In this document: positions 1,885-20,300 of the stretch, piece after piece
Numbering within the stretch: the stretch's first letter is position 1
Layout of the letters: each line of letters opens with the position of its first letter
NCBI RefSeq assembly: GCF_001261735.1
Contig: NZ_CVRP01000014.1
Coordinates: forward strand, 1-64,000
DNA from: Dysgonomonas sp. BGC7
GTDB taxonomy: Bacteria > Bacteroidota > Bacteroidia > Bacteroidales > Dysgonomonadaceae
Direction: 5' to 3'
Length of the DNA: 64,000 nucleotides
Notes under the pieces: generated by a model
The model's input: only the letters and a program-made list of their open reading frames with translations
Told to the model about the DNA's origin: nothing
The model's database searches: none
Made by a program: the position numbers and the translations under genes

Positions 1885-3393
1885 TTAAAATTGCATTATC
1901 GCCCGAGCCCTACCCCATGTATCGTATTTGAATTTTGAATTCTGTAAAATCCCTGTCTGAAAATGTACAGACCATACTTTTTGGTTATCTATCTCTGTAG
2001 AAGCCCAATACTGTCCTGTCAGGTTCAATATAACGCCACCTGCATTTGTTAGCTTTGTATTAAATTCAGTACGAGCAGCAATAGCCGCAGTAGAATTAAG
2101 ATTAGGCATTGCCCCTCCATCTATCCACGAAGTTTCTATATCGGCATATGCAATACCGCTGATAGCTGCATACAGAGATCTCAATTCATTCTTAGAAGGT
2201 ATATACCACTGTCCATTCACATCACTTTCGTTCATTTCGCTATACAACCAATGAAAGACTGCGTAATCTGTAGAGAAATTAGAAGCAGATTTTCGCACAT
2301 TAATAAGGCTATGTGTTGCACTTTTTCCATCATCAATATCCCTTATCAAAGCTACACCATCAGTAGATTCGTCCTTAGGTGAAGTTCCCCATCTGTTTTG
2401 CTTTTCGGTTAAGGAAACCACCTTACCGTTTTTTCCTCCATTATAGACTTCAAAAACAATACCCTGAGGAGTTCCTGTGAAAGGATAGACATCTCCGACA
2501 CTATAATTATGTTCGGGTAAAGGATCTCCTGTAAGAGTAATTTTCCACTTCGACACTTTACCTCCCGTAAGGGTAGTTGCAGTTTCAGTACTGTAATTAA
2601 AGTTTATTTCTTTGCCAGTAGTTTCTTGTATAAAAGAAAATATTTCCTTTCCCACACCTATTGTCTGAGCCGGTACTAATGCCCGATATGTATAAGTAGA
2701 AGCAGATGTTTCTTTTTCGACACGAAGCATTGCAATATCCTGCGTTGCAGAGACAACAGATGTTGCAGAAGAATTTACCAAATTAACATTTGCAGAAGAA
2801 GAACAGTTGCGTAGTATTACTGTTAAAGAGTTGTCAAAAGCCACCATATTTGCACCTTTAACAATTTCCACCTGTACAAGAGACAAGGCATGAGAAAATT
2901 GTAGATTAACAGTAGTTTTCATTTGATTTTCGGCTTTAGCTAAAATCAAATCACTATCATTATATATGCTTTCATCTTTTTGGTTATTGTCTACGGTAAA
3001 TATCATATTTACAGGATCAGCACCTGACACATATGGATAATAAGCATAAAAAGTAAGAGTAGAACCATCGACTGGTGAATATATCTTATCACCATCTAAT
3101 GTCCATTCTCCGGCATTATAAGTCAATTTCCGATTGTCTTCATAATTACCGGACGACTTCAAGGATTCACCACTTTTAATGATAAACACTCCTATTTCGT
3201 CTCCATCTTCAAATTTACTTTTAAAATCAGTACCAGTAGATACTTTTGTTTGATTATCAAAGCTCATTGAAAAGTTAATTTCACCTTTCGATTCGAGGCT
3301 CTTTTCTTCTCCGGCTGAAAAATCATCCTCGTTACCGCAAGAAGCAAAACCTAAGAAGAGTAATCCTATTAATAATAATCGTATTGATTTCAT
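1885..3393 (-). CDS. Fimbrillin-like lipoprotein with Lcl_C/DUF1566-type C-terminus (copy 2)
   Basis: A 502-residue exported lipoprotein, with signal peptide MKSIRLLLIGLLFLGFASC whose lipobox ends FASC. Residues of about 20-300 show the fimbrillin (Mfa-like_1) pattern: a stretch containing GDEIGVF, then STLTFYAYYPY, then beta-rich sequence. The last ~190 residues resemble the Lcl_C/DUF1566 fold: QWYIPSKNELRSLY, then GQYWASTE, a WSVHFQTG motif and a final RARAIMQF. The start at 3393 is chosen because it directly begins the signal peptide and avoids overlap with the upstream gene; an upstream ATG at 3414 is possible. It is a tandem paralogue of the preceding gene, nearly collinear in the C-terminal half and divergent in the N-terminal half. 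As the last gene of the PUL it is probably a surface adhesin or glycan-binding protein; its function is inferred. Confidence 0.8.
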   Translation of the reverse strand: MKSIRLLLIGLLFLGFASCGNEDDFSAGEEKSLESKGEINFSMSFDNQTKVSTGTDFKSKFEDGDEIGVFIIKSGESLKSSGNYEDNRKLTYNAGEWTLDGDKIYSPVDGSTLTFYAYYPYVSGADPVNMIFTVDNNQKDESIYNDSDLILAKAENQMKTTVNLQFSHALSLVQVEIVKGANMVAFDNSLTVILRNCSSSANVNLVNSSATSVVSATQDIAMLRVEKETSASTYTYRALVPAQTIGVGKEIFSFIQETTGKEINFNYSTETATTLTGGKVSKWKITLTGDPLPEHNYSVGDVYPFTGTPQGIVFEVYNGGKNGKVVSLTEKQNRWGTSPKDESTDGVALIRDIDDGKSATHSLINVRKSASNFSTDYAVFHWLYSEMNESDVNGQWYIPSKNELRSLYAAISGIAYADIETSWIDGGAMPNLNSTAAIAARTEFNTKLTNAGGVILNLTGQYWASTEIDNQKVWSVHFQTGILQNSKFKYDTWGRARAIMQF

Positions 3394-3421
3394 ATATTTG
3401 TATTTTATTTTCATGAAGTAA

Positions 3422-4957
3422 TTAGAATGCCAGGATAGGACGAAGTCTTCCGTAGGCATCTCCTTTCGATTTTGAGTTTTGCAATACGCTCGTCTGAAAA
3501 TGTACCGACCAGACTACATTACTGCTTATTTCTGTTACTGCCCAATATTGTCCATAGAAATTGAAAGCTGTTCCTCCTGCATTTGTGACCTTGGTATTGA
3601 ATGCCGTACGGGAATTCTGGCTAGCGGTTGAATCGAATCCCGGCATAGCAGCACCATCCGTCCAGCTATTCTCAATCTCAGCATAAGTCAATCCGCTAAT
3701 TGCTGCATAGAGCTCTTTCAATTCGTTTTTAGACGGAACATACCATGCTCCATTCTCATCAGCACCATTAAGGCTATTATATAGCCAATAGAAAACAGTA
3801 TAATCATTTGCAAAATTTGCTGCGTTTTTACGCTTCGCTATCAAATTCTTAGTCGCATCTTTTCCATTGTCTGCATCTCTGATGAGCAATACACCATCAG
3901 CCGATTCATCTTTTGTATTATCTCCCCATCTGGCCTGCTTTTCCTGTAGAGAAACAACCTTGCCATTTTTTCCTCCGTTACTAATTTCGTAAACTATACC
4001 TGTAGGTGTTCCTTCTTTAGGATAAACATCGCCCACACTATACTTTGCTACAACGACAGGCTTACCGTTTCCGAGAGTAGGATCATCGCCTGTACCAAGC
4101 CAATCAGAAATACTTCCTTCCGAAATCTCGATCTGGCTGGTGCCCACTGTAACATCGAACGAATATATTTTCCCTTCGGTAAAAGAGACAGGAACAGTTG
4201 TCTTCCACTCGAAAGAGGTATTATTAGACAAAACAAATTCAAGATTATATAACACATCTGATTCGGGCAACACAATAGCCTGAGAAACTGTTCCATCTGG
4301 TGCTGTCGATGCTGTTATAATTTCTTTTGTCCGAATATTACTCATCCGCCCTGTAGCCAAATTAAAATCGGCAGCAGTATTCAACCCGTTTATATTGACT
4401 TTCATATTGTTTAGGCTGGATGCAGGTAAACCCTGTCCGACAGAAATATTAAATATGAGTTTAGTCAGCTTATGCGAAAAATTGAGATCGACAGATGTAA
4501 CTCCGTTATTTATATCTAAGGCATTGTTGCTGTACAAAAGATCTATTTTGGATTGTTGACTCTGGTCTTTAAGATTAACATCGTATAGAAAATTACTTAC
4601 TTCTTTGTAAGGATAATATGCTACAAAGTCAACATTTTTGCTTTCATCAGCAGGATAATATATAGGATCTGCTACAGGAGATAATCTACCGGACGCATCC
4701 GCTGTATATTGAGAATTACGGGCATTATTTACAACAAGAGTAGTACCGCTTCTCATCATATAGACTCCTATTTCATCACCCGAAGTCCATAATCCATCTG
4801 CTGTTTTCAGTTTCGACATTTCTGATATAGAAGCATCAAACTGTACAGCGCTTCCTACTTTGTGACTGTCGCTATTATCGTCATCATCGCTACAAGCGAT
4901 TAATCCAAACAGTAATAATCCGGTTAGTATTAAATGTATTTTTTTCATGCTTTTCAT
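3422..4957 (-). CDS. Fimbrillin-like lipoprotein with Lcl_C/DUF1566-type C-terminus (copy 1)
   Basis: A 511-residue lipoprotein. The lipobox GLIAC is followed by an Asp-rich run, a typical export context for surface lipoproteins in Bacteroidota. The N-terminal half carries the fimbrillin signature (GDEIGVYMMRSG, then a DFVAYYPY motif). The C-terminal half carries the Lcl_C-like block (AWYVPSKNELKELY, GQYWAVTE, WSVHFQT, final RLRPILAF). Either ATG at 4957 or 4948 begins a good signal peptide. It lies 58 nt downstream of the GH16-reductase gene and 28 nt before its paralogue, so both are probably transcribed with the PUL. Fimbrillins polymerise into type V pili after N-terminal processing; the presence of a C-terminal Lcl_C-like domain suggests a tip or stand-alone binding protein rather than a stalk subunit. 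This role is inference. Confidence 0.8.
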   Translation of the reverse strand: MKSMKKIHLILTGLLLFGLIACSDDDDNSDSHKVGSAVQFDASISEMSKLKTADGLWTSGDEIGVYMMRSGTTLVVNNARNSQYTADASGRLSPVADPIYYPADESKNVDFVAYYPYKEVSNFLYDVNLKDQSQQSKIDLLYSNNALDINNGVTSVDLNFSHKLTKLIFNISVGQGLPASSLNNMKVNINGLNTAADFNLATGRMSNIRTKEIITASTAPDGTVSQAIVLPESDVLYNLEFVLSNNTSFEWKTTVPVSFTEGKIYSFDVTVGTSQIEISEGSISDWLGTGDDPTLGNGKPVVVAKYSVGDVYPKEGTPTGIVYEISNGGKNGKVVSLQEKQARWGDNTKDESADGVLLIRDADNGKDATKNLIAKRKNAANFANDYTVFYWLYNSLNGADENGAWYVPSKNELKELYAAISGLTYAEIENSWTDGAAMPGFDSTASQNSRTAFNTKVTNAGGTAFNFYGQYWAVTEISSNVVWSVHFQTSVLQNSKSKGDAYGRLRPILAF

Positions 4958-5015: not shown

Positions 5016-6656
5016 TCATTCCCATTCCGGAAATTGTGTCTTATTCAGGTCAAGATCTGAAATCTGCTTCATATCAGCAGCATCAAGCTCAAAGTCAAAC
5101 ACATCTAAGTTTTCAGACATGTAAGCTAAATTTGATGTACGGGGAACAGTAATTATACCTCGCTGAATAATCCATCTTATAGCTATCTGAGCATTACTTT
5201 TATTATACTTTTTACCAATGGCTGTAAGAATAGGATTATTGAAAATATCGCCACGACCACCGACCAACGGAGACCATGCTTCCATCTGTATTCCCATATT
5301 ATTTAAATCTCTTTGGGCTGCAAACTGCTGAAAAAGGACATGAGTCTCTATTTGATTCACCGCTGGTTTTACTTTTGCATAAGACAATAATTCTTTAAGT
5401 TGATCGGTATCGAAATTACTAACCCCAATCGCTTTTATCTTACCCTCATTGTAAAACTCTTCCATCGCTTTCCACGATCCTTTTATATCTTTATGTGGTC
5501 TTGGTCGATGAATCAGATACAGGTCTATGTAATCTGTTCCAAGTTTTCGTAAAGATGCTTCAAAGCCTTTTTTAGCCGCTTCATATCCCATATCATCTAC
5601 CCATAGCTTTGTGGTAATGAAAAGATCTTTACGTTCAATTCCACTTTTTTTGATTCCCTCACCAACTTCTTCTTCATTAGCGTATATATTGGCGGTATCA
5701 ATCATTCGGTATCCTAATGAAATTGCATTTGCAACACTATTACGGGCTTCAGATCCATTAAGAGCGTGTGTTCCAAAACCGAGTGCAGGCATTTGCACTC
5801 CATTGTTGAGTGTAATCATCGGAACAGATCTTTTTTGATAAACTCTTACATAATCAACCTCATATGTAGCAGGCAGAGCTGTTTCATCTACACCTTTCAT
5901 TCCACCCCAATCTCCTCCCCAAGCCAAATTCAGCTTAAGATAGAATGGCTTATCGAACGGCCACATTGTTTTATCTCCGGCTTTATTATTGTGATAAATG
6001 AAATGTGCTTTACCATCAACATAGCCTTTAATATAATCAGGTGTCCATTCCAGTCCATATATATGAAATTCAGATTCGGCTGTAGGAACATATTGTTCTC
6101 CGGTTTTGTGAGTTCCTTTTTTATGGTTATACGCAGCAGTATGAATAGCTGAAGATGTCCAGTTTGGACGAACTCCTACTTCTTCCATAATATCTATTTC
6201 TCCATCTTCAGGCCACGTTTTAAAATCTCGGGGGAGCATCCAGAAAGCAGGCCATGTTCCTTTTCCTACAGGTAGTTTAAGACGAGCTTCGAAATATCCG
6301 TAAGTCCAGCTTTGAAGAGTATTCAGGCGGGCGGATATAACCCCACGTCCTTTCTTTTTTGCAATAATTTTCAAAGTTCCATCAGAAACTATAGTGCAAG
6401 TATCTATGCCAGATACCCCTGCCACATAATGCTGAATTTCGTTATTTCCCCATCCATGATCTCCTGTTTCGTAACTCCAACGTGTTGTATTAGGCATTGC
6501 AGGTTTTCCATTGTCTGAAGAAAGATCGTTAAACTCTTCTTGCCAGATCAATGAGTATCCTTCAGGATTAAAACGATCAGACTTAAGAGATTCTTGCGCA
6601 CGGCTTATCCCCACAACTGAAATAAGGAAACAAAATAGAATAAAGCTCTTCTTCAT
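5016..6656 (-). CDS. Exported GH16 beta-glucanase fused to an aldo/keto reductase
   Basis: A 546-residue two-domain protein with a signal peptide (cleavage likely after SRA, residue 20). Residues about 30-276 are a GH16 endo-beta-glucanase (laminarinase/lichenase type) with the catalytic motif EIDIMEE: nucleophile E153, D155, acid/base E158. Supporting motifs are WTYGYFEARLKLP and the terminal YEVDYVRVYQ. From about residue 278 a full aldo/keto reductase follows, with the complete tetrad D320 (GYRMID), Y325, K350 (TTKLW) and H383 (LIHRP), plus GVSNF and the NADP-binding segment VPRTSN. GH16 normally ends at YVRVYQ, so the reductase is appended as a whole domain of normal length. Reading frame and codon use are continuous across the join. 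AKRs use NAD(P)H and are usually cytosolic, so an exported copy is odd. It sits in the PUL between GH2 and the fimbrillin-like genes. Domain calls are strong; the fused function is unknown. Confidence 0.9.
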   Translation of the reverse strand: MKKSFILFCFLISVVGISRAQESLKSDRFNPEGYSLIWQEEFNDLSSDNGKPAMPNTTRWSYETGDHGWGNNEIQHYVAGVSGIDTCTIVSDGTLKIIAKKKGRGVISARLNTLQSWTYGYFEARLKLPVGKGTWPAFWMLPRDFKTWPEDGEIDIMEEVGVRPNWTSSAIHTAAYNHKKGTHKTGEQYVPTAESEFHIYGLEWTPDYIKGYVDGKAHFIYHNNKAGDKTMWPFDKPFYLKLNLAWGGDWGGMKGVDETALPATYEVDYVRVYQKRSVPMITLNNGVQMPALGFGTHALNGSEARNSVANAISLGYRMIDTANIYANEEEVGEGIKKSGIERKDLFITTKLWVDDMGYEAAKKGFEASLRKLGTDYIDLYLIHRPRPHKDIKGSWKAMEEFYNEGKIKAIGVSNFDTDQLKELLSYAKVKPAVNQIETHVLFQQFAAQRDLNNMGIQMEAWSPLVGGRGDIFNNPILTAIGKKYNKSNAQIAIRWIIQRGIITVPRTSNLAYMSENLDVFDFELDAADMKQISDLDLNKTQFPEWE

Positions 6657-6672
6657 AACCTATACTGTTAAA

Positions 6673-8481
6673 TTACTTCGTTTTGTATTCTTCTTTTTTC
6701 TTATTATAAAAATCCTGCATTACAAAAAATGCTTTCTTTTTTATACCCCAATTAGATATAACACCTTTACGATTATAAAAATCCTGTATGCCGGGCAATT
6801 GGCGCCTTGGAGAACGAAAGTCTACTAATATCCAAGGAGAAAGACCGGAAAGCCCTTCTATTTTATCTAACATTTCAAGATTTTGTATATAAAGTTCCTC
6901 CTGATACTCTTCTGTCCATCGTTGTGTCTTAGGGCCGTGCATGCCTTGTAGAGCATCTCCTCCAAATTCACTGATAATTACCGGCTTGTTATACGGAACT
7001 TCCCATTTCATATCCTTACACGACTCGTTAGTACCTCTATACCAGCCTAAGTACTGATTGAAACTGACAACATCTACAAATTCATTCATATTGTCATCAA
7101 GCTTATTTATGTTGTTAGGAGCCTCAGTCACTTCCATAGCCATACTTATCAGCCTTGTATTATCCTGCTGACGGGCAAAAGATGAAAGCCTGCTCAGGAA
7201 TTTATCGCGAGCATCGCCATGTGGAGTTTCATTGGCAATAGACCAAATAATAACTGCTGCACGATTCTTGTCACGATAAATCATGTCACGTAATTGGTTT
7301 TGAGCATTCTGATATGTTTCTTCTCTATCGAAAGAGATCGTCCAGTAGACGGGTATCTCAGACCACACCATTAGCCCGAGACGTTCGGCTTCACGTACCA
7401 TATTTTCATTGTGAGGATAATGTGCCAGACGCACATAATTACAACCCATTTCTTTAGCCCAAGACAAGAGTGTTACAGCATGCTCTTTCGACCATGCACG
7501 TCCTTGATAGAAAGGAGCTTCTTCGTGAATACTGATTCCCCGTAAGAAAATATGCTGACCATTAAGAAGTATTTGCTTCTCTTTGGTTTCTATAGTTCGA
7601 AAACCAATCTTATCTGAAATATTCTCATTCTCAGAATGTAGTGCTACATCATACAATTTAGGGTTTTCGGGAGTCCATAAAACAGGCTTGGACTTTATTT
7701 CGAAAACCGCCTTTCCGTCAGTATCTGTAAGCAGCTTTTGCTTTATTTTCAGTTCGGGTATATCTATGGTGATTGTTTGCCCGGCAAGAGGATTATTCAA
7801 CTTAACCCATCCCGTGATTAAATTTGTCACACCTTTTGGCAACTGGATAAAATAATCTTCAAGATAGGTTTCAGGCAGCACAGATAACATTACCTCGCGA
7901 GTAATTCCTCCATAGTTCCACCAATCCATATTGACAGTAGGGACATTATCCTTATGGCGTTTGTTATCGACTTTTACAACTACAAAATTATTACCATTGG
8001 TTATTTCGTCAGTCACATCAAAATTGAAAGGAGTATAACCTCCTATGTGCTCTCCTACTTTTGTGCCGTTTACATATACCTTAGTGTCATAGTTTGCAGC
8101 TCCAAAATATAAGACATATTTTTTGCCGGCCTCTTTTGACACTTCAAAGTCTTTCTTGAACCAAACGGTACCTTCATAAAAGAAAAGCTGATCGTCTTTT
8201 GTATTCCAGTCGGATGGAATATCCATGATGGGTGAAGTGTCAAGATTATACTCTACCAATTCTTGCGGGTTCTGAGCTTTTCTGTTTTTGAAAAAGCCAT
8301 TTTTCAACACTTCGAGTCTATATCCATAATATCCATTTTCGAGAGGATCTACAACATAATTCCATTTGCCATTCAGGCTAATATTTTCGCGAGCATAGAT
8401 ATTGGACACCAACGGAATCTCTTTTGCAAAAGAAGTAGCTGCCAGTAATAGAGTAAATATTGTAAATAAAATTCTTTTCAT
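6673..8481 (-). CDS. Exported GH2 beta-glycosidase (beta-glucuronidase/beta-galactosidase type)
   Basis: A 602-residue protein with signal peptide (cleavage near TSFA). It has the GH2 order: sugar-binding jelly roll (SLNGKW to about 200), Ig-like domain (about 205-300), then a TIM barrel. The acid/base is E418 in IIWSIANETP and the nucleophile E505 in VIISEFGGDA. An N-R-K triad at 570-572 (FYNRKG) aligns with the NxK motif that contacts the carboxylate in bacterial beta-glucuronidases, so beta-glucuronidase is favoured over beta-galactosidase, though this triad also occurs in uncharacterised GH2 relatives. The start at 8481 begins the signal peptide and leaves 10 nt after the GH10 stop; a longer frame to 8541 would overlap that gene. 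It probably trims oligosaccharides in the periplasm. Confidence 0.88.
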   Translation of the reverse strand: MKRILFTIFTLLLAATSFAKEIPLVSNIYARENISLNGKWNYVVDPLENGYYGYRLEVLKNGFFKNRKAQNPQELVEYNLDTSPIMDIPSDWNTKDDQLFFYEGTVWFKKDFEVSKEAGKKYVLYFGAANYDTKVYVNGTKVGEHIGGYTPFNFDVTDEITNGNNFVVVKVDNKRHKDNVPTVNMDWWNYGGITREVMLSVLPETYLEDYFIQLPKGVTNLITGWVKLNNPLAGQTITIDIPELKIKQKLLTDTDGKAVFEIKSKPVLWTPENPKLYDVALHSENENISDKIGFRTIETKEKQILLNGQHIFLRGISIHEEAPFYQGRAWSKEHAVTLLSWAKEMGCNYVRLAHYPHNENMVREAERLGLMVWSEIPVYWTISFDREETYQNAQNQLRDMIYRDKNRAAVIIWSIANETPHGDARDKFLSRLSSFARQQDNTRLISMAMEVTEAPNNINKLDDNMNEFVDVVSFNQYLGWYRGTNESCKDMKWEVPYNKPVIISEFGGDALQGMHGPKTQRWTEEYQEELYIQNLEMLDKIEGLSGLSPWILVDFRSPRRQLPGIQDFYNRKGVISNWGIKKKAFFVMQDFYNKKKEEYKTK

Positions 8482-8491
8482 ATCTACACGT

Positions 8492-9559
8492 TTATTTATA
8501 CAAGCCTTGTAAAATACCATCATACGCCGGCTTACGCTCATAGTCTTTGCTAAAAGGCAACACCCAGTCCGGCGAACTGTAGCGCCACGAATACTGATCA
8601 GTTACTCCCCACATAGTGATTCCGAATTGTAATTCGACAGGTATATCCATCATAGCTTTAGTTACATACCTGTATATATCCTGCTGTTTTTTAGCCAACT
8701 CATCGGTAAAAGTAAGTGTCTCTATATTATCCGGATTTACTGAAACATCCAACTCGGAGACATGTACTTTCAAATTTCTCGCGGCAGCAGCCCGAACAGC
8801 ATATTCTATTCTACCTTCCAGTTTATTAATATCTGTATGCATTTGCAGACCAATTCCGTGTATAGGAACATTTTTAGCAATCAGCTCATCTGCCAGTTTA
8901 TTAATAGCTACATTCTTAGCATGACTATATTCCTGTCCGTACTCATTATAAAATAGAATTGCGTCAGGATCTGCTTCGTGAGCATATTTAAATGCTAATT
9001 CTATATACTCTGTTCCTATATTTGTAAGCCATACACAAGGGCGATATGTTCCATCGTCGAGTAAAACTTCATTAACAACATCCCATGAGGTAACTTCACC
9101 CTTAAAGTGTGTAACAACATCCTGTATATATTCTTTCATCAGAGTTTTCCATGCTTCTTTGTTGCCTGAAAAAGACTGTATCCATGCCGGAGTTTCCCTA
9201 TACCAGATGAGAGTATGACCATGAACCCTCATATTGTTTTGCTTAGCAAAATCGACTATATAATCAGCATCATCGAAAAAGTATAAGCCTTTACCTTTAC
9301 TGACAACAGTCATTTTCATCGCATTTTCTGCCGTTATACTACTAAATTCTTTAATGAGTATCTCCTTATATTTAGCATCATTCTTCAAATGAGTAATATT
9401 TACAGCAGCACCCATCTTGAGAGGCGACTCTCTTAGATTGTCAATATTAAGTTTGGGTATTTCGTTACTGCCAGTCGGAGTATTATCATCATCATCGCTA
9501 CATGCCGATGTTATAGTCATCGAAAATATACATAGCGCAAATATTAATATCTTTTTCAT
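8492..9559 (-). CDS. GH10 endo-beta-1,4-xylanase lipoprotein
   Basis: A 355-residue lipoprotein with Cys20 in the lipobox TSAC, followed by an acidic run expected for surface display. The GH10 barrel is complete: HGHTLIWY (about 114-120), DVVNEVL with acid/base E164, and HVSELDVSV with nucleophile E269, then a TMWGVTD segment with the usual aglycone-site Trp. No carbohydrate-binding insert is present, so it is a single-domain endo-enzyme. GH10 members hydrolyse xylan and some also accept mixed cellulosic substrates. The start at 9559 avoids overlap with the upstream GH3 stop. It is the one clear xylan-type enzyme in a PUL that also holds GH16 and GH3, which bears on the target polysaccharide. 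Confidence 0.92.
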   Translation of the reverse strand: MKKILIFALCIFSMTITSACSDDDDNTPTGSNEIPKLNIDNLRESPLKMGAAVNITHLKNDAKYKEILIKEFSSITAENAMKMTVVSKGKGLYFFDDADYIVDFAKQNNMRVHGHTLIWYRETPAWIQSFSGNKEAWKTLMKEYIQDVVTHFKGEVTSWDVVNEVLLDDGTYRPCVWLTNIGTEYIELAFKYAHEADPDAILFYNEYGQEYSHAKNVAINKLADELIAKNVPIHGIGLQMHTDINKLEGRIEYAVRAAAARNLKVHVSELDVSVNPDNIETLTFTDELAKKQQDIYRYVTKAMMDIPVELQFGITMWGVTDQYSWRYSSPDWVLPFSKDYERKPAYDGILQGLYK

Positions 9560-9572
9560 GTGTATTCTATTT

Positions 9573-11891
9573 TTAGCGTACAATAAATTCTTCTTTCTTT
9601 AAGTCTGCTGTGCGAGAAGATGATCCTATATGAACTGTAAAAGCACCAGCTTCTACTCCATAATTCATTTTAGCATCATAATACGAAAGTTTGTCAGGAG
9701 TTATATTAAACTCTACAGTCTTAGTCTCTCCGGGGTTCAGCGATATACGGGCAAAATCTTTCAATTCTTTTACAGGACGTGTTGCCGAACTATAGTTATC
9801 GGTTATATAGAGTTGCACAACTTCATCTCCTTGCTTTTTACCGATATTAGTTATATCTATAGAAGCTACAACAGAGCCATCTTTAGCAATCTCCTTCGCC
9901 GACAGTTTCATTTCTCCATATTTGAAAGAAGTGTAACTAAGTCCATATCCGAAATCGAATAATGGAGTAGAATTTCCTGTTGCATATTTAAACCATTTCG
10001 AGGTGAATTTATAATTATAATAAGTCTGAATTTGTCCCGAATGACGAGGAATTGTGATTGGCAATTTTGCTGAAGGATTTACGTCACCGAAAAGAATCTC
10101 GGCTGTAGCCTGTCCTCCCAAAGAGCCCGGTTCCCATGCCTCTAGCAATGCTGGAACATTATTAGCAATCCACTCGGTAGACAAAGGGCGACCGTTTACC
10201 AGAACCACAACTACAGGTACTCCCATATTGTACAAACCCTCTACAAGCTCTTGCTGAAGACCAACCAGATTAATATCATATCTGTCGCTATTTTCTCCAC
10301 ATGTTTTATCTTTCCACTGGTAACGCATAGAATTTTCTCCGACAACAACTATTACTAAATCGTTATCTTTTGCCATACCAATAGCCTTATCAACTTGTTC
10401 TTGTTTCATAGTACGCAGATTCCAGCCAAATTCGCAGAGATTAAATTTCACATCCGGACGTACTTGTTTCAACCCCTGATAGATTGTCACTACATTAGCC
10501 TCGGGCTGTTCCAGAGCCCAATCGCCTAATATGGACTGGTTGTTGGCATTAGGCCCTGTAACAAGAACTTTCTTATATTTTTTACTGTCGAGCGGTAACA
10601 GGTTATTCTCGTTTTTGAGAAGAACTATTGACTGACGAGCTAAATCCAATGCTGTTTGTTGGTGATTCTTATTATATAGTATTTTATTAACATTGGCTAC
10701 ATTCACATAAGGATTTTCAAATAATCCCAAGCGGAATTTAGACTCCAAAATTTTCCTTACGGACTCGTTGATACGAGCTTCTGTTAGTTTACCTTCCTGA
10801 ACAAGCTTTATGACATCGAAGTAAAAATCAGGGCCATGCATATGCAAATCCATTCCGGCATCGACTGAAAGGAAGAACGCATCTTTCAACGTCTCACTCA
10901 CTTTATGATAGTCTTGCATACGCTCTATATCCATCCAGTCACTAACTATGAAACCCTTAAACCCTAATTCTTTTCGTAAGATATCATCCATCAGGTATTT
11001 ATTACCATGACAAGGTATTCCGTTCAATTCATTGTGGGCAGTCATCACCGTTGCTGCTCCAGCATCTACACAAGCCTGAAAAGGAGGCAGAAACACTTCG
11101 CGCATTGTACGTTCCGACACATCGAATGGAGCCCCGTTGACACCGTTCAGAGGTTGACTTCCTCCTATCAAATGCTTTGCACATGCCAAGACAAAATCAG
11201 CTCCTGCATTACTTTCATTCTGAAACCCTTTTATAGTTGCCACTCCCATCTTAGAAACCAGAAATGGATCTTCACCAAACGTCTCTCCTACTCTACCCCA
11301 ACGGGCATCGCGAGCTACTTCCACGTTTGGAGTAAAAGTCCAGTGAGTTCCTGTAGCTCTCATTTCCAAAGCTGTCTCATGCGACATTTTTTCAACCAAA
11401 GCAGGATTGAACGAAGCAGCCTGTCCTATACAAGTTGGGTAAATAGTTGTTCCTCGTACCATACCATTGCCATGTACAGCATCAATTCCCATAATGAGCG
11501 GAATTTTCAATCTGCTCTGCAAGGCTAATGATTGTAGATAATTAGCCTCTTCGGCAGATACAACATGCAAGAACGAACCTACCATTCCTTGCTTTGTCAT
11601 CTCTTCTATTTTAGCAGGAGGATAATCTGCATAGAATCCCATCGCATGGCTCTTTTTCATTTCTTCGGGAGAAATCTCAAAAGCTGCTTTTTTCATATGC
11701 TCCAAGCCTACATACTGGTTCATTTGTGCAACTTTCTCTTCCAAGCTCATTCTTCCAAGAAGGTCTTCGACACGCTTTTCAACAGGTTGTTTAGCATCCT
11801 GATAAATATATTGTGCCGACATATACTGACCTGTAAAGAAGAATGAGGCCACGACTAAAACTGCTGTTATATTTTTGTTTTTGAAAATCAT
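9573..11891 (-). CDS. Periplasmic GH3 beta-glucosidase
   Basis: A 772-residue GH3 enzyme with a signal peptide (cleavage near QYMSA). Domain order is the GH3 N-terminal barrel, the alpha/beta sandwich C-terminal domain and a terminal fibronectin type III-like domain starting about residue 670. The nucleophile is D318 in GFIVSDWMD. Also visible are the KHLIGG and RWGRVGETFGEDP motifs. Length and architecture match bacterial BglX-type beta-glucosidases/beta-xylosidases that release monosaccharides from the non-reducing end of imported oligosaccharides. It lies 27 nt downstream of the small lipoprotein gene in the PUL. Exact sugar specificity cannot be fixed from motifs. Confidence 0.93.
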   Translation of the reverse strand: MIFKNKNITAVLVVASFFFTGQYMSAQYIYQDAKQPVEKRVEDLLGRMSLEEKVAQMNQYVGLEHMKKAAFEISPEEMKKSHAMGFYADYPPAKIEEMTKQGMVGSFLHVVSAEEANYLQSLALQSRLKIPLIMGIDAVHGNGMVRGTTIYPTCIGQAASFNPALVEKMSHETALEMRATGTHWTFTPNVEVARDARWGRVGETFGEDPFLVSKMGVATIKGFQNESNAGADFVLACAKHLIGGSQPLNGVNGAPFDVSERTMREVFLPPFQACVDAGAATVMTAHNELNGIPCHGNKYLMDDILRKELGFKGFIVSDWMDIERMQDYHKVSETLKDAFFLSVDAGMDLHMHGPDFYFDVIKLVQEGKLTEARINESVRKILESKFRLGLFENPYVNVANVNKILYNKNHQQTALDLARQSIVLLKNENNLLPLDSKKYKKVLVTGPNANNQSILGDWALEQPEANVVTIYQGLKQVRPDVKFNLCEFGWNLRTMKQEQVDKAIGMAKDNDLVIVVVGENSMRYQWKDKTCGENSDRYDINLVGLQQELVEGLYNMGVPVVVVLVNGRPLSTEWIANNVPALLEAWEPGSLGGQATAEILFGDVNPSAKLPITIPRHSGQIQTYYNYKFTSKWFKYATGNSTPLFDFGYGLSYTSFKYGEMKLSAKEIAKDGSVVASIDITNIGKKQGDEVVQLYITDNYSSATRPVKELKDFARISLNPGETKTVEFNITPDKLSYYDAKMNYGVEAGAFTVHIGSSSRTADLKKEEFIVR

Positions 11892-11918: not shown

Positions 11919-12287
11919 TTAGTTCGTTACATTCAATATTGCTTCTCTGGAAGTTGTATATTTCGGAGTAGTCACAACCAGCTTCAAGTTATGTTTAACA
12001 GGCTGACCAGAATGGTACTCGAAAACTGTACCTCTGCAATATTCTACCCCATCGAGATACCAGATTCCTTCACACAGATTGGAAGGAGTGAATTGCATGA
12101 CTATGCTGAAATCGACACCTACCTGAGCACCAAAAACGCCTAATTCATTCCCAGTCTTATCTGGCCATCGTCCCATTATACGAGGATATTCCTCTTCTGT
12201 CATTACAGGCAGATCTACATCCGAATCGCAGGCAGAGAAAAAACTCATACCGATAATCATCATTATTATATATATTAACTTTTTCAT
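11919..12287 (-). CDS. Small lipoprotein in the surface glycan-binding position of the PUL
   Basis: A 122-residue lipoprotein (lipobox FSAC, Cys near residue 19) directly after susD, the usual place of SusE/SGBP genes. The mature part is about 100 residues, predicted all-beta and compatible with one Ig/PKD-like domain. It has an aromatic-rich loop (CEGIWYLDGVEYC) flanked by two Cys that could form a disulfide. Typical SGBPs are 300-500 residues with several domains, so this one is unusually short. I do not recognise a named family. The start at 12287 begins the signal peptide; a longer frame would overlap susD. Surface glycan binding is an inference from position and lipidation only. Confidence 0.7.
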   Translation of the reverse strand: MKKLIYIIMMIIGMSFFSACDSDVDLPVMTEEEYPRIMGRWPDKTGNELGVFGAQVGVDFSIVMQFTPSNLCEGIWYLDGVEYCRGTVFEYHSGQPVKHNLKLVVTTPKYTTSREAILNVTN

Positions 12288-12316
12288 TATAGTATCATTT
12301 TTTAGATTATCATTTT

Positions 12317-13939
12317 TTACTGCTTGTCCCACCACACTCTGGCATTCCAACTATCAACTCCGCCCATAGCTTCCAAAGCTGCATTATATGCTTCTTTATT
12401 GTACGATGCTTCAGACAATGGATAGTTTAGTCGGCGGGGTATAGTCTGAGATTCGATAGTTATAGCTCCATATTCGTGAGAAGATTTCAGCACAGGATAG
12501 CCAGAACGGCGCCAGTTGGCAAATGCTTCAGGACCATTGGTCAGATGCAGTATCCATAGTTGCTCATTGATAGACTTCATTTGTCCGCTTACTGTTGCCG
12601 GATATGGATTCGTTGTCAGATATGTAGAAATTTCTGCATCAGAGATTGCATTTATCTTATATTTTGCCAGAAGTTTCATTGCTGCGGTTACTCCGTTTTC
12701 ATAATATTGTTTTGCCGTTGTCGAACTCGGGATATCGCCACTCCATCTTACTTTAGCTTCACTAAGGAGTAACTGAACTTCGGCATATGTCATCAGAACA
12801 CCCGGAGCATCGCCTTTTAGAAATGCATTATTCAATTGAGGACGACAAGATTTATCCTGCCACTTCTGAGTAGAAGTACTCCAATAACCACTCGGCCATT
12901 TATCGTACCAGAAATAGCCCGGATTTGGCGGTTGAAACTGGCTTAACCCTTTTGTTGTAATAATCTCATCTGTAAGGTCTATTCTATTAAACGGATTCCC
13001 TGAAGCTAAAGCCGTTTCATCATAGCTACGCCCAATCTTCAAAAGACGTGGATCGCTCGTATCTTTCAAATAATTCCATAGAGTAGAACAAATACATTGT
13101 GTAGGGTATGGATCTCGCCCTCTCCAAATCTGCGACATTGCATTGCGACGAATTTCAGTTGTCTCCCAATCGAAAATATCATTATATGTAGTAAGAGCAT
13201 CATCGTTTATAGTAAGCAAACCCGAGGCCAATCCTAAGATTTCAATCACTTCTTTACGTGCTTTTTCGGGATTTACCTTTGTTAAACGCATAGCTGCACG
13301 AAGGCGTAACGAATTGGCAAAACGTTTCCATTTGGTAATATCTCCACTGTATATTATATCTCCCGTTACAGTGCCACCTGCTGCACTCAGAGCAGCTTCT
13401 ACTTCTTTCATTTCCTTCAGAAAATCATCATAAATAACTTCCTGCTTATTGTATACCGGACTTGAGATATCTTGAGAAGCACCTCTTCCTGCTTCGAAGT
13501 AGGGAATATCTCCATACATATCGGTCAAAATCATAGAATAATAAACTCTGAAGATGCGAGCTATTGATCTCACATTGGTATAAGAGGGGTCGTCTTTTGT
13601 TTTATCAATTACATCTACAAGATTTTTCATAGACAGACCATATATACGAGTCCATGTCTGAGACATAATAGGGTTACTCCGGCGATATTGACCTCCATAA
13701 TTGGTTACATTCCACTCACCCTGCACATGTTGAACAAAGCTGGAAAAATAAAAGTTATAAGGCTCCATAGTCAACCAATCACCTCCTGTAAGAAGTTGGG
13801 CATATGCCAACTGATTGTTCGGATCTATAACAGGAGACTTTGTCGGGTTGGTATTCAGATCATCGAAGTTGTTACACGATGAGAGCAGCAATAGGCTCAA
13901 GACGCCTGCCAACAGTATTTTATTTATATTTTTAAACAT
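12317..13939 (-). CDS. SusD/RagB-type outer-membrane glycan-binding lipoprotein
   Basis: A 540-residue lipoprotein (lipobox LLSSC, Cys near 22). The sequence after it (FDDLNTNPTKSP) and the overall pattern match the SusD-like_2 branch. This partner caps the SusC transporter on the cell surface and delivers glycan into it. Aromatic residues suitable for sugar stacking are frequent (for example the PNPGYFWYDKWPSGYW stretch near residue 340). The stop codon of susC lies 11 nt upstream. Length and termini are complete, with no sign of truncation. Confidence 0.93.
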   Translation of the reverse strand: MFKNINKILLAGVLSLLLLSSCNNFDDLNTNPTKSPVIDPNNQLAYAQLLTGGDWLTMEPYNFYFSSFVQHVQGEWNVTNYGGQYRRSNPIMSQTWTRIYGLSMKNLVDVIDKTKDDPSYTNVRSIARIFRVYYSMILTDMYGDIPYFEAGRGASQDISSPVYNKQEVIYDDFLKEMKEVEAALSAAGGTVTGDIIYSGDITKWKRFANSLRLRAAMRLTKVNPEKARKEVIEILGLASGLLTINDDALTTYNDIFDWETTEIRRNAMSQIWRGRDPYPTQCICSTLWNYLKDTSDPRLLKIGRSYDETALASGNPFNRIDLTDEIITTKGLSQFQPPNPGYFWYDKWPSGYWSTSTQKWQDKSCRPQLNNAFLKGDAPGVLMTYAEVQLLLSEAKVRWSGDIPSSTTAKQYYENGVTAAMKLLAKYKINAISDAEISTYLTTNPYPATVSGQMKSINEQLWILHLTNGPEAFANWRRSGYPVLKSSHEYGAITIESQTIPRRLNYPLSEASYNKEAYNAALEAMGGVDSWNARVWWDKQ

Positions 13940-13950: not shown

Positions 13951-16900
13951 TTAGAATTTTACATTAACATTAACCCCAAAGCTTCTGCGAGATGGAAGAG
14001 AACCAAACTCCAATCCCATACCCGTACTATTATTATAATTGGAATCAGGATCTATATTATCTATCTTTTTATAAATAATAAATGGATTACGAGACACGAA
14101 TGAAACAGAAACATCATCGGCAAATTTTTGAATTATTTTTCGAGGCAGACGATATGAGAAAGTTATTTCTCTGACTTTTATATAGCTGTTGTCGTACACA
14201 AAAGCACTAGGCGCATAAGTAGAAATATGTTTCCAGTATTCTTCGGGATCTACCAATTTTGTGTTTTGAGCATAAGACTTATTACCTGCACCATCTACTG
14301 TTTCTATAACGCCTTTAGCAACATATCCTCCTGTTGGTGCCCAGTCTACTTCAGATACTCCGGCTTCGAGACGTTGCTCTTCCGATCTGTACCAACCATC
14401 GCGTCCGACAAGTGTTTCTTTCGATTTTCCTGTGCTGTAGAATGAACGAGCTGACATTGAGTAAAGATCTGCACCCCATTTTACATCAATTATGGCAGAC
14501 AATGAGAAACTCTTATATCTCAGATTTGTGTTAACACCTCCTGTCCAATCCCATGTAGCATTGCCCAATACAGAAACCTGATCAGATATTTCGGGTAGTC
14601 CGGTAGAGGCGTTTATTATAATATCGCCCTTAGGACTACGTTTGTAATCTTTTCCCATAATAGCTCCGTAGTTCTCTCCGACTACTGCATCTACAGTTAC
14701 ATTTAGCCAAGCTGCCTCAGCCAGTGTAAAGCGATCGAGCCCGGAAGCAAGGCTTTTTACCTTATTTACATTCTTTGAGAAATTGAAATTCAAATCCCAA
14801 GAAAGGTCATTTGTTTCGACAGGACGAGTATTTAAAACTATTTCGACTCCTTTATTTTCTATATCACCAGCATTTACAATCTTGGCATCGTAACCCGAAG
14901 CGATAGACGTATTCAAACGCATAATCTGATCTTTACTATTTTGTGTATAGTAAGTGAAATCGAAGCCTAATCTGTTTTTCAAGAATTTCATTTCAATCCC
15001 GAATTCAGCAGAATTTGTCCGAGTAGGCTTCAGATTAGGATTAGGAACTTCCGAGTTGTAAATAGTACCCAAAGGATAAGTTCCATATGCCTTATCTATC
15101 ATAGAGTAGTTTAGTGCCAAACGGTAAGGGCTTGTATCACTACCTACCTGAGCTACCGAAGCTCTCAGTTTGCCATAAGGGAATATATCTTTATTTAGTT
15201 TCCACACCTCAGTGAAGAGGAATGATGTAGATACAGAAGGATATATATATGTATTCTTACTGGAAGGCAGAGTCGATGATTTGTCTCCACGAAGGGTAGC
15301 ATCGAGATACAAGAAATTGTTATATCCTACATTCACCATCGCAAATAAAGAGTTGATCTGTTTACGATATACATCTTCTACTACTTCTTTGGAAAGAAAA
15401 CTCTGAAGTGCAACAACCTCACGCATACGCATATCTTTTGCTGTAACAGATTCGGTACGATTGTTTACAAAAAAGATATTTCCCCCTACATTAGCCCCTA
15501 CATCAAAAAGTCCGAATTTATCTTTATAGGTAAGTAGAGCTTCCGTGTTGTATGTATAGTTCTTGAAAGTATTATTCTTCAAATATCCGGTCTCTCTTCC
15601 GGGTGTTGAATATGGAGCATAGTCTTGAAAAGTAAAGAGGTTAATCTCTCCTCCACCTGTTACACGAGCCTGAAACTTATCATTAAATTTATAGCTTAAC
15701 ACTCCTGTTCCCGAAAACTTATCTTTATCAGAGTTATTATTCATCTCATTTACAATCCAATAAGGATTGAGATTATATACATCGTGGTTGTTCCAATCGT
15801 AATACTCTCCATTATCCATTTTATAAGCATTTTTCAACCATCTTTGATCGAAAGTAGTGGCAAGCGTCATTAGGTTTTTACCCACATTGGTGCGGTCGCC
15901 GGATAATGCCGGACGGTTATTCACATCTTCACGCACATAATTAGCTTTCAGATCGAGATCCAGCTTATTTGCAATCTGTGTATTTGCACGTATATTAATC
16001 GTATTTCGACTCATATCTGTATTAGGAACTATATCCCAATTCAACATATTTGTATATGATAGCCTTACACCGGTTTTATCTTGTGTGGCATTAAAGATTA
16101 CAGTATTGGTAGTAGTAACACCTGTTCGGAAAAAGCCGTCGATGTTGTTCTCGATAAACTTATAAGGACGTTTTACTCCATCGAAATACGTTAGATATAA
16201 CCCTTCATCGATTTTAGGCCCCCAGTTGCGACTAGAGCTATGCTTGTCATCGATCCCGTTTATACGACCTTCTGTACCCTGTCCGTAAGTTGTTTGAAGA
16301 TTATTATACTTAGTAAGTTGATGCTCGATAGTAGTAGTTGAATTAAACTCTATACCAAGCCTTTTCTTACCTCCTGCTTTTTTTGTTGTAATCAGAATTA
16401 CACCATGGGAAGCCCGACTACCATAGAGAGCCGAAGCGGCAGGGCCTTTGAGCACCGATATGTTTTCTATATCGTCGGGGTTAATACTTGAAATACCGTC
16501 TCCCAAATCATATCCTCCATGCGTATCGGCAGAACCAAAATTAGTATTGTCTAACGGAACGCCATCTACAACATACAAAGGCTGATTATTTCCTGTAAGT
16601 TCGGTACTACCACGAATAATAACACGAGAACTACCCGATGGGCCGCCAGCTGTCTGGCTGATAACCAACCCCGGAACCTTTCCAGCCAAAGCATTGATAA
16701 CATTTGTTTCCTTTGCCTTTTCCAGCTCTTCTCCTTTCACTTCACCCACCGAGTATCCCAAAGCCTTCTTCTCACGCTTGATGCCCAAAGCCGTAACTGC
16801 AACTTCTTTTAGCAGATTCACTTCTTCTTCGAGCGTAATATTTAATGTCTTCTGATTCGATACTCTTACTTCCTGAGTAACGAACCCAATGTATTTTATA

Positions 16901-17154
16901 ACAAGAACCGTATTAGGAGTAACATCAATCGTAAATTTCCCATCAGCATCGGTAATGGTACCTTTCAATGTTGCTTTAATTTGGACGGAAGCCCCGATAA
17001 GAGGTTCTCCTTCAACATCAATCACCGTACCCGATATCTTCCATGAGTTTTGTTGAACAGTTTCTGTTGCTTTTACATCTATATTACCCATTGCAAAGGA
17101 ACAGGGCAATACTAGAAGAGAAAACAGCAAGAGTGATACTTTCATTCTTTTCAT
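13951..17154 (-). CDS. SusC/RagA-type TonB-dependent glycan transporter
   Basis: A 1067-residue outer-membrane transporter. After a signal peptide come a carboxypeptidase-D regulatory-like domain (ISGTVIDVEGEPLIGASV), the SusC-specific linker, a TonB plug (PLYVVDGVPLDN, RASHGVILITTKK) and a 22-strand barrel that ends in the canonical aromatic residue (VNVNVKF). No STN/anti-sigma extension is visible, consistent with control by the neighbouring HTCS rather than ECF trans-envelope signalling. The start at 17154 (or 17145) begins the signal peptide; a longer frame to 17208 adds an unlikely hydrophobic leader. It heads the structural part of the PUL and imports oligosaccharides too large for porins. 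Confidence 0.95.
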   Translation of the reverse strand: MKRMKVSLLLFSLLVLPCSFAMGNIDVKATETVQQNSWKISGTVIDVEGEPLIGASVQIKATLKGTITDADGKFTIDVTPNTVLVIKYIGFVTQEVRVSNQKTLNITLEEEVNLLKEVAVTALGIKREKKALGYSVGEVKGEELEKAKETNVINALAGKVPGLVISQTAGGPSGSSRVIIRGSTELTGNNQPLYVVDGVPLDNTNFGSADTHGGYDLGDGISSINPDDIENISVLKGPAASALYGSRASHGVILITTKKAGGKKRLGIEFNSTTTIEHQLTKYNNLQTTYGQGTEGRINGIDDKHSSSRNWGPKIDEGLYLTYFDGVKRPYKFIENNIDGFFRTGVTTTNTVIFNATQDKTGVRLSYTNMLNWDIVPNTDMSRNTINIRANTQIANKLDLDLKANYVREDVNNRPALSGDRTNVGKNLMTLATTFDQRWLKNAYKMDNGEYYDWNNHDVYNLNPYWIVNEMNNNSDKDKFSGTGVLSYKFNDKFQARVTGGGEINLFTFQDYAPYSTPGRETGYLKNNTFKNYTYNTEALLTYKDKFGLFDVGANVGGNIFFVNNRTESVTAKDMRMREVVALQSFLSKEVVEDVYRKQINSLFAMVNVGYNNFLYLDATLRGDKSSTLPSSKNTYIYPSVSTSFLFTEVWKLNKDIFPYGKLRASVAQVGSDTSPYRLALNYSMIDKAYGTYPLGTIYNSEVPNPNLKPTRTNSAEFGIEMKFLKNRLGFDFTYYTQNSKDQIMRLNTSIASGYDAKIVNAGDIENKGVEIVLNTRPVETNDLSWDLNFNFSKNVNKVKSLASGLDRFTLAEAAWLNVTVDAVVGENYGAIMGKDYKRSPKGDIIINASTGLPEISDQVSVLGNATWDWTGGVNTNLRYKSFSLSAIIDVKWGADLYSMSARSFYSTGKSKETLVGRDGWYRSEEQRLEAGVSEVDWAPTGGYVAKGVIETVDGAGNKSYAQNTKLVDPEEYWKHISTYAPSAFVYDNSYIKVREITFSYRLPRKIIQKFADDVSVSFVSRNPFIIYKKIDNIDPDSNYNNSTGMGLEFGSLPSRRSFGVNVNVKF

Positions 17155-17258
17155 TGGTATTAGTTTGAGAGTTAAAATAATAAAACAAAAGGCTATATGA
17201 ATAACCATTCAGGCAACAATATTAGATATAATGTTCTTTAAGAGGGTTTAAAAATTGA

Positions 17259-17350: not shown

Positions 17351-20300
17351 TCAATCCACTATTTTGCTTGGATTGGTTCCATAATATTTTTTAAAAACTG
17401 TACTAAAGTATTTAGTATCGGAAAAACCTGTTTGTAATGCAACCTCTTGAATAGTATATTTTTTAGAAATTAACAACTCTTTTGCCTGCTTTAGTCTGAT
17501 AACCCGAATAAATTCGTTAGGAGACTGATTCGTCAGGGCTTTTAGCTTTTCATAAACAAGTGTACGACTCATCGCAATTTCTGCACAGAGATCATTGACC
17601 GTAAATTTACTGTTTGCCATATTCTTTACGACTATTTGAATACACTTATTTAAGAATTCTTCATCGATATTTGTTGTGCCGACCTCAATATCCACAGCGC
17701 TATCTTCTAAGGTTGTTGATTCGGCCAGATTATTTTTTGTAAGATAATATTGCTGCAATTTTTTTCGGGTTTGAAGAAAGTTGTGAATTTTCATTTTCAA
17801 CACCTGACTATCAAATGGCTTTGTTATATAGTCATCAGCTCCATATTGGAGACTGTGAATCATCTTATCTTTCTCGGCAATGGCAGTAAGCAAAATAACA
17901 TGAATGTGAGATGTCTCAATATTGTTTTTCAGAATACGACACAGCTCATCGCCATGCATACCATCCATCATAATATCAGAGACAACCAAATCTGTCATAT
18001 TATTCTTGAGAAACTCCAACGCTCGCTCTGCCGAAGAAACACTGTATAGCTTATACTCATCAGACAATATATTTGTCAAGTAGTTACGCATATCATCATT
18101 ATCTTCTACAAGGAGAATGCGGTAAGATTCTGTAAAGTGACGTTTCGACGCTGAATAGAATTCTTTATCCGCATAGGTATCCTCTTCTATACCGGTATGA
18201 GGAGAGACAAAGCCCAAATCCTTGATAGGGAAAGACAAGCAAAAGGTAGTTCCCTTGTTTTCCTCACTTATAAAAGCTAACTCTCCTTTTATTTGTTTCA
18301 CCAACTTATGCGTAAACATAAGCCCTATACCCGATCCTATTTCTTTAGAGTTGACAGCATTTTCGGCTCTGTATATATGTTTAAATATTTTCTTCTGTTC
18401 TTTCTTCGAAATACCAATACCAAAGTCTTCGACCTCGAGGCTGATCTTTTTATCATTATTTCTCAGCCTTAAATAAATACCTGAATCCTCTTTCGAGTAT
18501 TTAAGAGCGTTCGAAAGTAGATTGTCAACTATTCTGTCCAGCTTTTTTATGTCAGTCTCTATATAAATACCATCAGCCGGAAGTTCTAGATGAATGGCAA
18601 TACCCTTATCTTGAGCCAAAGGAGAAAATTGCTTTTGCTTATTGTTCACATAGTTTTTCAAATCGCAGATGGAAAGGCTCAATCGGGAAGGATTTATTTC
18701 CTCTTTCTGAAAATCTAACAACTGAGTAACCAAAGAGAAGAGTTTCTCCCCATTCTGTTTTGCCAATTGCAGATATGCTTTTCCCTTATCTGACATTTTA
18801 TGTTCTTCTTCCAGATTGGACAAAGGAGCTAGTACTAAAGACAATGGAGTGCGAATGTCGTGTGCAACATTTATAAAGAAATTAATTCGTTCCTTCGATT
18901 GCTGTTTCAACATTCTTTCTCTGTAAAAACTCCATGCCCAATAAACTAATGACACAAATACCAAAGAATAAATGATCCATGCCCAGATAGTATTCCAGAA
19001 AGGCTCATTTACAATAACATTTATCTTCCTTTCGGCCAGTATTTGTCCGTCATTTTTGTTTATACATTGAATTTTGAATGTATACTTTCCCGGAGAAATA
19101 TTGGTATAATCGGCAGTCAATGCACTTCCGCGCGGTATCCAATCCTTGTCGAATCCTTCTAAAATATATTTATAAACATAATTATCCGGATTATAGAGAT
19201 CTATAGCAATAAAGCCAAAGGAGAAAGAACTCTGATCGTAATCTAATGTAATATCATTCAGCTCATTGATAGGCTTGGGTAATATTTCGGGTGCATCTTT
19301 TGGCGTAATTGACTGATAGAATAGTCTAAAATCGGTAAACAGTAGTTTTGCTTTCAGTTCTGCTCTTTTTATATCTTTCGGATTAAATATCAGCGCCCCA
19401 TCTGTTCCTCCAAATGCCATACGACCATCTTTAAATTCGGTGAAAGACATAAAAAGAAATTCCTTTATAGGAAGATTGCTTATATTATACAAGAACCTTT
19501 TCTGAGCAGGATCGAAACAAAATATCCCTTTACTGTTACTTACCCATAACAACCCCTGCCTATCTTCCAGTATTCCGTATATATAGTTGGATGGAAGTCC
19601 ATTGTAAGTAGAGAAATTATCAACCTTATCAGTCTTCAGATTCATACAGTTGAGCCCTCCCCCATCGGTACCAAACCAGATTTCATCACCAATCATTACT
19701 GATGAGTAGACAAAAGTATTACTTTTTATATCATATTTGGCCGGACTATTAAAGTAGCGTTTTTTCTCGCCCGTATGTTTGTTCAAAATAACAAAACCGT
19801 TAGAAGTCGCCACAAAAAGATTATTGCGATCAATTACCTTTATGGACTTAACCTGCTCTATGTCATAGTAGGAAAAAACTTCTTTGCCATCCACCAAAGA
19901 CATCCTGGCAAGAGAAGAATACAGACAGCCAAACCACATGTCTCCATCATTATCTTTTACGGAGGCATATATACACTCTAACTGTGTCTTTTTCTGAAAA
20001 TATGGAATGTAACGTAAAACTCCTCTATGTTTGTCGATACAATATAAGCCGGTACTGTAGCCCCCTGTCCAAATCCGACCGTTATTATCTTCGCAGAGGG
20101 TAAGAAAACTGTTTTCTTCTTCAAGGAAATGAGTCCATTGGTTCTTCTTCGTATCGTGGAAGCTTACTCCCAGATTGGTTGCATACCAAACATCTCCATC
20201 TCTGTCTTCGAGAATAGCATATATATGAGTTCCTTTAACAGACTGATTATTAAAGGGGATATGTCTTATCCATTCAAATATTTCAGGCTCTTTTACGATT

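Follow-up and report, generated by a model that had tools for sequence, protein, structure and literature searches.

A GH16–aldo/keto reductase fusion with a predicted export signal in a polysaccharide utilisation locus of Dysgonomonas

Organization of the locus

The DNA analysed here (the window) is a stretch of 64,000 nucleotides from Dysgonomonas sp. BGC7 (contig NZ_CVRP01000014.1, positions 1 to 64,000). It holds a gene in which a GH16 glycoside hydrolase is joined to an aldo/keto reductase (AKR). The genes of the locus lie on one strand in the order HTCS, SusC, SusD, small lipoprotein, GH3, GH10, GH2, fusion and two fimbrillin-like genes, and the intergenic gaps from SusC onward are at most 58 bases. 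The genes other than the fusion are as follows.

17351..21298, minus strand: hybrid two-component regulator (HTCS) with Reg_prop, Y_Y_Y, HisKA, HATPase_c, Response_reg and HTH_18 domains
13951..17208, minus strand: SusC-like TonB-dependent transporter, identified from sequence, with homologues in the polysaccharide utilisation loci (PULs) of L188 and L021
12317..13939, minus strand: SusD-like protein, identified in the same way, with homologues in the same two PULs
11919..12350, minus strand: small putative lipoprotein with no Pfam match and a homologue in L188
9573..11891, minus strand: GH3 glycoside hydrolase (Pfam; nearest entries beta-xylosidase and beta-glucosidase)
8492..9583, minus strand: GH10 lipoprotein-like glycoside hydrolase (Pfam; nearest entries xylanases)
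6673..8541, minus strand: GH2, beta-glucuronidase-like (Pfam; nearest solved relative 6d1n)
3422..4957, minus strand: fimbrillin-like protein with an Lcl_C-like C-terminus, a probable PUL surface protein (PF13149, 159 bits)
1885..3459, minus strand: second fimbrillin-like protein with an Lcl_C-like C-terminus (PF13149, 132.9 bits)

A SusC/SusD pair, glycoside hydrolases and a regulator are combined here, which marks the locus as a PUL. The PUL setting that an earlier sequence-only reading had given the fusion was therefore borne out by the HTCS, the SusC/SusD pair, GH3, GH10 and GH2. The GH2 matches 6d1n, a beta-galactosidase/beta-glucuronidase, at 778 bits, and it adjoins the fusion both in the window and in L021, the second fusion locus described below. 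An acidic beta-linked polysaccharide would fit best as the substrate of the locus.

L188, a stretch from the window's genus, carries at positions 6596-19900 a locus comparable with window positions 1885-17208. Eight genes from SusC to fimbrillin stand in the same order and are 44-76% identical; the L188 stretch ends within SusC, and its locus has no fusion gene. Gain of the fusion gene here, between the GH2 and the fimbrillin-like genes, is likelier than its loss in L188, because no other genome searched, apart from that of L021, has the fusion. The fimbrillin-like pair (window 1885-4957) closes the PUL and is 44-51% identical to the L188 pair; the two are possible surface glycan-binding proteins. 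The Lcl_C match in both lies below its cut-off.

Several further observations were made around the locus. At window 1-594 the contig start truncates a gene for a galactarate/altronate dehydratase (PF20629), of which the C-terminal part remains; it faces the PUL and hints at uronate catabolism nearby. At window 23750-26806 lies a 1018-aa protein whose start resembles an exported GH3-type enzyme. The window's genome has a second locus (G000:C8 36185-37999, L187) with a 75% identical GH2, a GH10, two GH3 and a 474-aa protein without a Pfam match; GH16 was not seen within the stretch viewed.

Structure of the fusion gene

The fusion gene and its domains are listed below.

5016..6656, minus strand: GH16-AKR fusion gene, 546 aa (open frame, Pfam, full-length homologue in L021)
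6597..6656, minus strand: Sec-type signal peptide MKKSFILFCFLISVVGISRA, residues ~1-20, read from sequence
5829..6590, minus strand: GH16 domain, residues 23-276 (Pfam PF00722; solved relative 8va4_A)
6183..6200, minus strand: GH16 catalytic motif EIDIME, residues 153-158 (residue check on sequence)
5019..5825, minus strand: AKR domain, residues 278-546, placed in an exported AKR subfamily (Pfam PF00248; clade from tree)

Positions 5016-6656 form a single open frame with no internal stops. PF00722 (GH16) matches residues 91-269 with 89 bits against a cut-off of 22, and the solved GH16 relative 8va4_A aligns across residues 30-276 with 331 bits. PF00248 (Aldo_ket_red) matches residues 292-535 with 191.2 bits against a cut-off of 24. 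One continuous frame with a signal peptide, a GH16 and an AKR had been proposed from the letters alone, and it holds at 546 aa with both Pfam domains far above their cut-offs. The N-terminus has neither a lipobox nor an RR motif, the latter being the mark of a Tat substrate.

EIDIME at residues 153-158 fits the pattern E-x-D-x-(x)-E, which we take to be the GH16 catalytic motif. The AKR catalytic tetrad consists of D320, Y325, K350 and H383. E153, D155, E158 and the four tetrad residues are present under the numbers first given to them, and both active sites of the fusion are apparently intact.

The join of the two domains lies at residues 276-278 (window ~5825-5831). The GH16 half ends in DYVRVYQK, as standalone GH16 proteins do. 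The AKR half starts with VPMITLNNG, near the mature start of standalone exported AKRs, which indicates that the AKR's own signal peptide is absent; the linker is almost nil.

Genuineness and distribution of the fusion

A scan of one genome per species across 84,980 species returned at least 593 stretches, of which at least 586 encode a relative, and the best 80 of the 586 were used. Among these 80, a second full fusion was found in L021 (Bacteroides sp. 51, NZ_QVMI01000017.1), which was assembled separately. Strain 51 and the strain of the window may be of cockroach-gut origin. Absence of any homologous fusion, together with a lack of reductase activity, had been named beforehand as a result that would speak against the two-domain reading; the L021 fusion is 76% identical to that of the window end to end, over residues 1-546. 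Synonymous sites between the two are saturated, and pN/pS is 0.173 across the 254 GH16 codons and 0.168 across the 269 AKR codons. Judged from these ratios, purifying selection is strong and equal on both halves.

Since just two cases were found, the fusion might be put down to a fault in assembly or to a chance event that selection does not maintain. The second case is separate, its synonymous divergence is saturated and both halves show pN/pS near 0.17, which together argue that selection keeps both halves. An assembly error is thus very unlikely as the source of the fusion, and the probability of error and chance taken together is close to negligible. As far as two cases can tell, the GH16-AKR join has a single origin.

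The fusion is rare. No further fusion appeared among the matches listed in 1,444 genome look-ups, made in overlapping sets to which the genome of L021 does not belong; several of the lists end at a set score or length, and a fusion would be expected to rank first in them. It occurred only in the window's genome among the matches listed for 101 relatives, for 101 genomes of the family and for 158 genomes of the genus of Bacteroides ihuae (G263), and likewise among 393 genomes of the order, with the best 3 candidates per genome scored. A search with the AKR gave the same result among the matches listed for 395 genomes of the phylum and 295 of the class. The window's genome has no other close AKR or GH16, its remaining two matches being 39% and 27% identical. 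Two candidates for further fusions, L038 and L085, were rejected, as each proved to be two separate genes. The idea that such fusions form a widespread class in PULs with GH3 and GH10 lost ground, since only two were found, both in PULs where they adjoin GH2. GH3 and GH10 stand beside the fusion only in the window, the comparison covering 13.6 kb of L021.

An internal deletion appears to have disrupted the GH2 upstream of the fusion in L021 (4950-5998); the final residues of this GH2 can be read in another frame. The L021 fusion is intact despite this apparent break.

Export signals and phylogeny of the AKR subfamily

A set of 71 distinct AKR frames was gathered by similarity alone, and export-type N-termini were called by pattern rules. 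With the fusion's AKR as reference, all 39 frames that score at least 359 bits begin with an export-type sequence: 32 are Tat-like (twin-arginine), three Sec-like and two lipoprotein-like (lipobox), and two are the fusions. Such a sequence is absent from all 32 frames that score 314 bits or below, a set that includes two fragments lacking their true start. Three of the 32 score below 240 bits, and both fragments are among these three. The members of the exported subfamily are mostly Bacteroidota, with one row (L094) from Fidelibacterota.

A maximum-likelihood AKR tree was built from 68 of the 71 frames and midpoint-rooted for drawing; it carries a long-branch warning among the distant rows. 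One branch parts exported from non-exported AKRs with a support of 98/92. The two fusions group together (100/99) and are joined by two lipoprotein-type AKRs and one Sec-type AKR (99/93). Their sister on this tree is L002, a lipoprotein-type AKR from another species of the window's genus, with a lower support of 93/72, and the wider Sec/lipoprotein/fusion group of seven rows has just 85/65. The export signal is older than the fusion on this tree, because the AKR half nests in a clade in which 39 of 39 members bear signals.

The lack of NAD(P)H normally expected outside the cytoplasm had been raised as a puzzle for the fusion. The puzzle itself stands, but it is not peculiar to the fusion; with export signals in 39 of 39 members, it belongs to the entire clade.

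The window's genome encodes TatC, as do 21 of the 22 genomes asked. Loss of Tat was considered as the cause of the Sec signals and rejected on these counts; a missing Tat system did not compel the use of Sec. G058, the sole genome asked that gave no TatC match, encodes an AKR of the Sec type.

In a quick tree of 75 rows made without bootstrap, the GH16 half falls among standalone genes that come mostly from Tannerellaceae (branch support 91). This grouping suggests that the GH16 and AKR halves have different histories, as they seem to do.

Cofactor site and active-site signature

Two further features of the AKR half distinguish it from non-exported relatives.

5109..5144, minus strand: altered dinucleotide 2'-phosphate site, residues 505-516 (PRTSNLAYMSEN), from row comparison
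5499..5510, minus strand: HRPR motif, residues 383-386, the catalytic His with two arginines, from row counts

The residues needed for a nicotinamide cofactor are retained. S413, N414, Q435 and W461 presumably hold the nicotinamide, and E515 and N516 are taken to face the adenine side, as expected from other AKRs. These six and the tetrad are unvarying in 39/39 exported rows, and D320, Y325, K350, H383, S413, N414, Q435, W461, R506, E515 and N516 are invariant in 31/31 aligned.

The 2'-phosphate site is changed in a coordinated way. Positions 506 and 512 align with a Lys and an Arg of solved relatives, which we take to be the residues that bind the 2'-phosphate of NADPH. The exported rows have R506 with H/Y512 (39/39), whereas the non-exported rows have K and R (25/25); 25 of the 29 non-exported rows were compared, four distant ones being left out. 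Changes at these two positions, K232 and R238 of a Corynebacterium 2,5-DKG reductase, reportedly shift that enzyme towards NADH. Exported AKRs probably differ from the usual preference for NADPH.

The HRPR motif is present in 38 of 39 exported rows and in none of the 29 non-exported rows. Directly after the catalytic His, all 39 have Arg, where YvgN has Trp and 4mhb has Gln. FP[ED]W at the C-terminus is found in 39/39 exported and 0/29 non-exported rows. Seven proteins outside the discovery set (two exported and five non-exported) all fit the exported-AKR signature; one further protein used in this test came from a genome already used. The fusion bears every mark of the subfamily, namely an export N-terminus (the GH16 half's signal), PR[ST]x4[HY], HRPR and FP[ED]W. 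The loop after HRPR is two residues longer (PHKD) in both fusions only. This pattern suggests an enzyme retuned in cofactor preference and substrate rather than one that has decayed.

The AKR half could instead be a non-catalytic sugar-binding module that serves GH16. It is predicted to be exported and is joined to a glycoside hydrolase almost without a linker, and little cofactor is expected outside the cell. On the other hand, the tetrad and the nicotinamide-contact residues do not vary in 39/39 exported rows, and constraint on the AKR equals that on the GH16 half. Such a module is clearly unlikely, and the same invariant catalytic and nicotinamide-site residues count against the earlier suggestion of an AKR that does no more than bind sugars.

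Probable folding outside the cytoplasm

AKR domains without cysteine make up 5 of 7 in the Sec/lipoprotein/fusion group and 8 of 61 among the others (Fisher p 0.002, with shared descent ignored), and both fusion AKR domains have none. The mean cysteine count is 1.28 in Tat-type AKR domains and 1.17 in non-exported ones. The scarcity of cysteine in the Sec/lipoprotein/fusion AKRs would fit folding outside the cytoplasm, although the richness of the Tat-type domains counts against a simple reading.

Part of the AKR might work in the cytoplasm, through an internal start or through chains that are not exported. Both fusions have an in-frame ATG (M280) at the start of the AKR. The upstream context of M280 scores -4.48, which is below all 34 starts of the window (mean 4.48, with the model built and scored on these same 34 starts) and like that of internal ATGs (mean -4.89), so a short cytosolic form is unlikely. 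In addition, the closest relatives bear export signals, and the AKR half is free of cysteine. The poor start context and the cysteine-free AKR domains weaken the earlier proposal of a partly cytosolic protein, and an AKR at work in the cytoplasm is regarded as highly improbable.

Proposed mechanism and alternatives

The preferred reading is that the fusion is an active extracytoplasmic two-domain enzyme, in which the AKR acts on a glycan product with a cofactor preference that is not the usual one; it is held with modest confidence, a little above an even chance. Sec would export the chain unfolded, and the GH16 and AKR domains would both fold outside the cytoplasm. GH16 would cut a beta-glucan-type chain, and in the same compartment the AKR would convert a carbonyl group, or the corresponding alcohol, of a product derived from the glycan. 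The alditol formation at fresh glucan ends that was suggested earlier may be one such reaction. The sugar end freed by the fusion is probably acidic or modified, and such a sugar is the probable substrate of the AKR because two arginines lie beside the catalytic histidine. The AKR would draw on nicotinamide cofactor encountered outside the cytoplasm and would depart from the usual preference for NADPH, and GH16 would be the carrier that brings the AKR to the product as the product forms. Export by Sec leaves the fusion no obvious way to carry NAD(P)(H) along, though the window's genome has TatC.

A closed cycle of hydride transfer offers a different answer to the supply of cofactor. The AKR would keep a nicotinamide cofactor tightly bound, oxidise one sugar and reduce another, and free cofactor would not be needed. 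Zymomonas glucose-fructose oxidoreductase, a periplasmic enzyme that needs a nicotinamide cofactor and is exported by Tat with bound NADP, works in this way. It resembles the fusion in its extracytoplasmic type and nicotinamide cofactor, but has another fold and no glycosidase fusion; the difference from the AKR fold counts against a closed cycle. Tat-like signals on 32 of the 39 members would fit export of a folded, cofactor-loaded protein, and the nicotinamide-site residues are invariant. However, the two fusions and the five standalone AKRs grouped with them bear Sec or lipoprotein signals, which means that cofactor cannot be carried along in a folded protein. TatC was found in five of the six genomes of this group that could be asked, yet Tat is not used. 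Such a cycle is considered fairly unlikely.

It can also be proposed that the substrate of the AKR half is uronic acid set free by the adjacent GH2, and not neutral glucan ends. The GH2 adjoins the fusion in both loci, its nearest solved relative is of the beta-galactosidase/beta-glucuronidase type, and R384 and R386 lie next to the catalytic histidine. Two findings weigh against this proposal: the arginines occur across the exported clade, also away from PULs, and the L021 GH2 appears broken beside an intact fusion. Its probability is put as quite low.

Beyond the two-domain enzyme preferred here, Bacteroidota may run extracytoplasmic nicotinamide AKR chemistry with a redesigned cofactor site, coupled in this case to polysaccharide cleavage, so that reduction or oxidation of the freed sugar end precedes its uptake. 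This broader proposal is tentative and stands well short of an even chance. If it is true, PULs include a redox step on cleavage products, which is absent from usual PUL models. Because this conserved AKR subfamily carries export signals and has a cofactor site altered in a coordinated way, nicotinamide redox chemistry in the envelope of Bacteroidota becomes directly testable. The fusion to GH16 suggests that the substrate is a glycan, and it offers one protein for such testing.

Relation to known systems

AKRs are usually regarded as NADPH enzymes of the cytosol. The component families of the fusion are known; searches of the open-licence PMC literature met neither an exported AKR subfamily with its own signature nor a fusion of it to GH16.

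The GH16 half resembles the laminarinase-type beta-glucanases of Bacteroidota PULs in its domain, its EIDIME motif and its PUL setting. The best whole-genome GH16 matches are 60-67% identical to it, and seven of the eight standalone GH16 loci viewed have SusC-like and GH3 matches. Unlike the fusion, these beta-glucanases have no AKR.

The best-scoring described type for the AKR half is the 2,5-diketogluconate reductase type (DkgA/YvgN/TM1009-like; solved 4mhb, 1vp5 and YvgN). The tetrad and the nicotinamide site are common to both. The fusion AKR differs in its export signal, in the change of K/R to R and H/Y at the 2'-phosphate site, in HRPR and in the C-terminal FPEW. It scores 257.4 bits against the DkgA model NF008598, under the NCBIfam equivalog cut-off of 425.

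The standalone Tat-, Sec- and lipoprotein-type exported AKRs belong to the same subfamily, share its signature and are 60-72% identical to the fusion in the AKR domain; in contrast to the fusion, they have no GH16. None of their 37 loci (3.3 to 19.5 kb each, many of 3.8 kb) matches the window's GH16, GH2, GH3, GH10, SusC or SusD above 50 bits, the queries being the window's own proteins, for which distant relatives may be missed. It is thus chiefly the fusion that carries the link to glycans. Forerunners of the fusion, in the form of an exported AKR gene next to a separate GH16 gene, were looked for in the 37 loci and not found. Two of the 37 have weak HTCS matches.

Two single cases were noticed among the standalone genes. 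A Tat-type exported AKR in L106 (9320-11863) adjoins a divergent GH43 gene; no other standalone AKR was noticed beside a glycoside hydrolase. L105 (9294-17272) has a 3-keto-disaccharide hydrolase gene at a distance of ~6 kb from its exported AKR, which is of the lipoprotein type.
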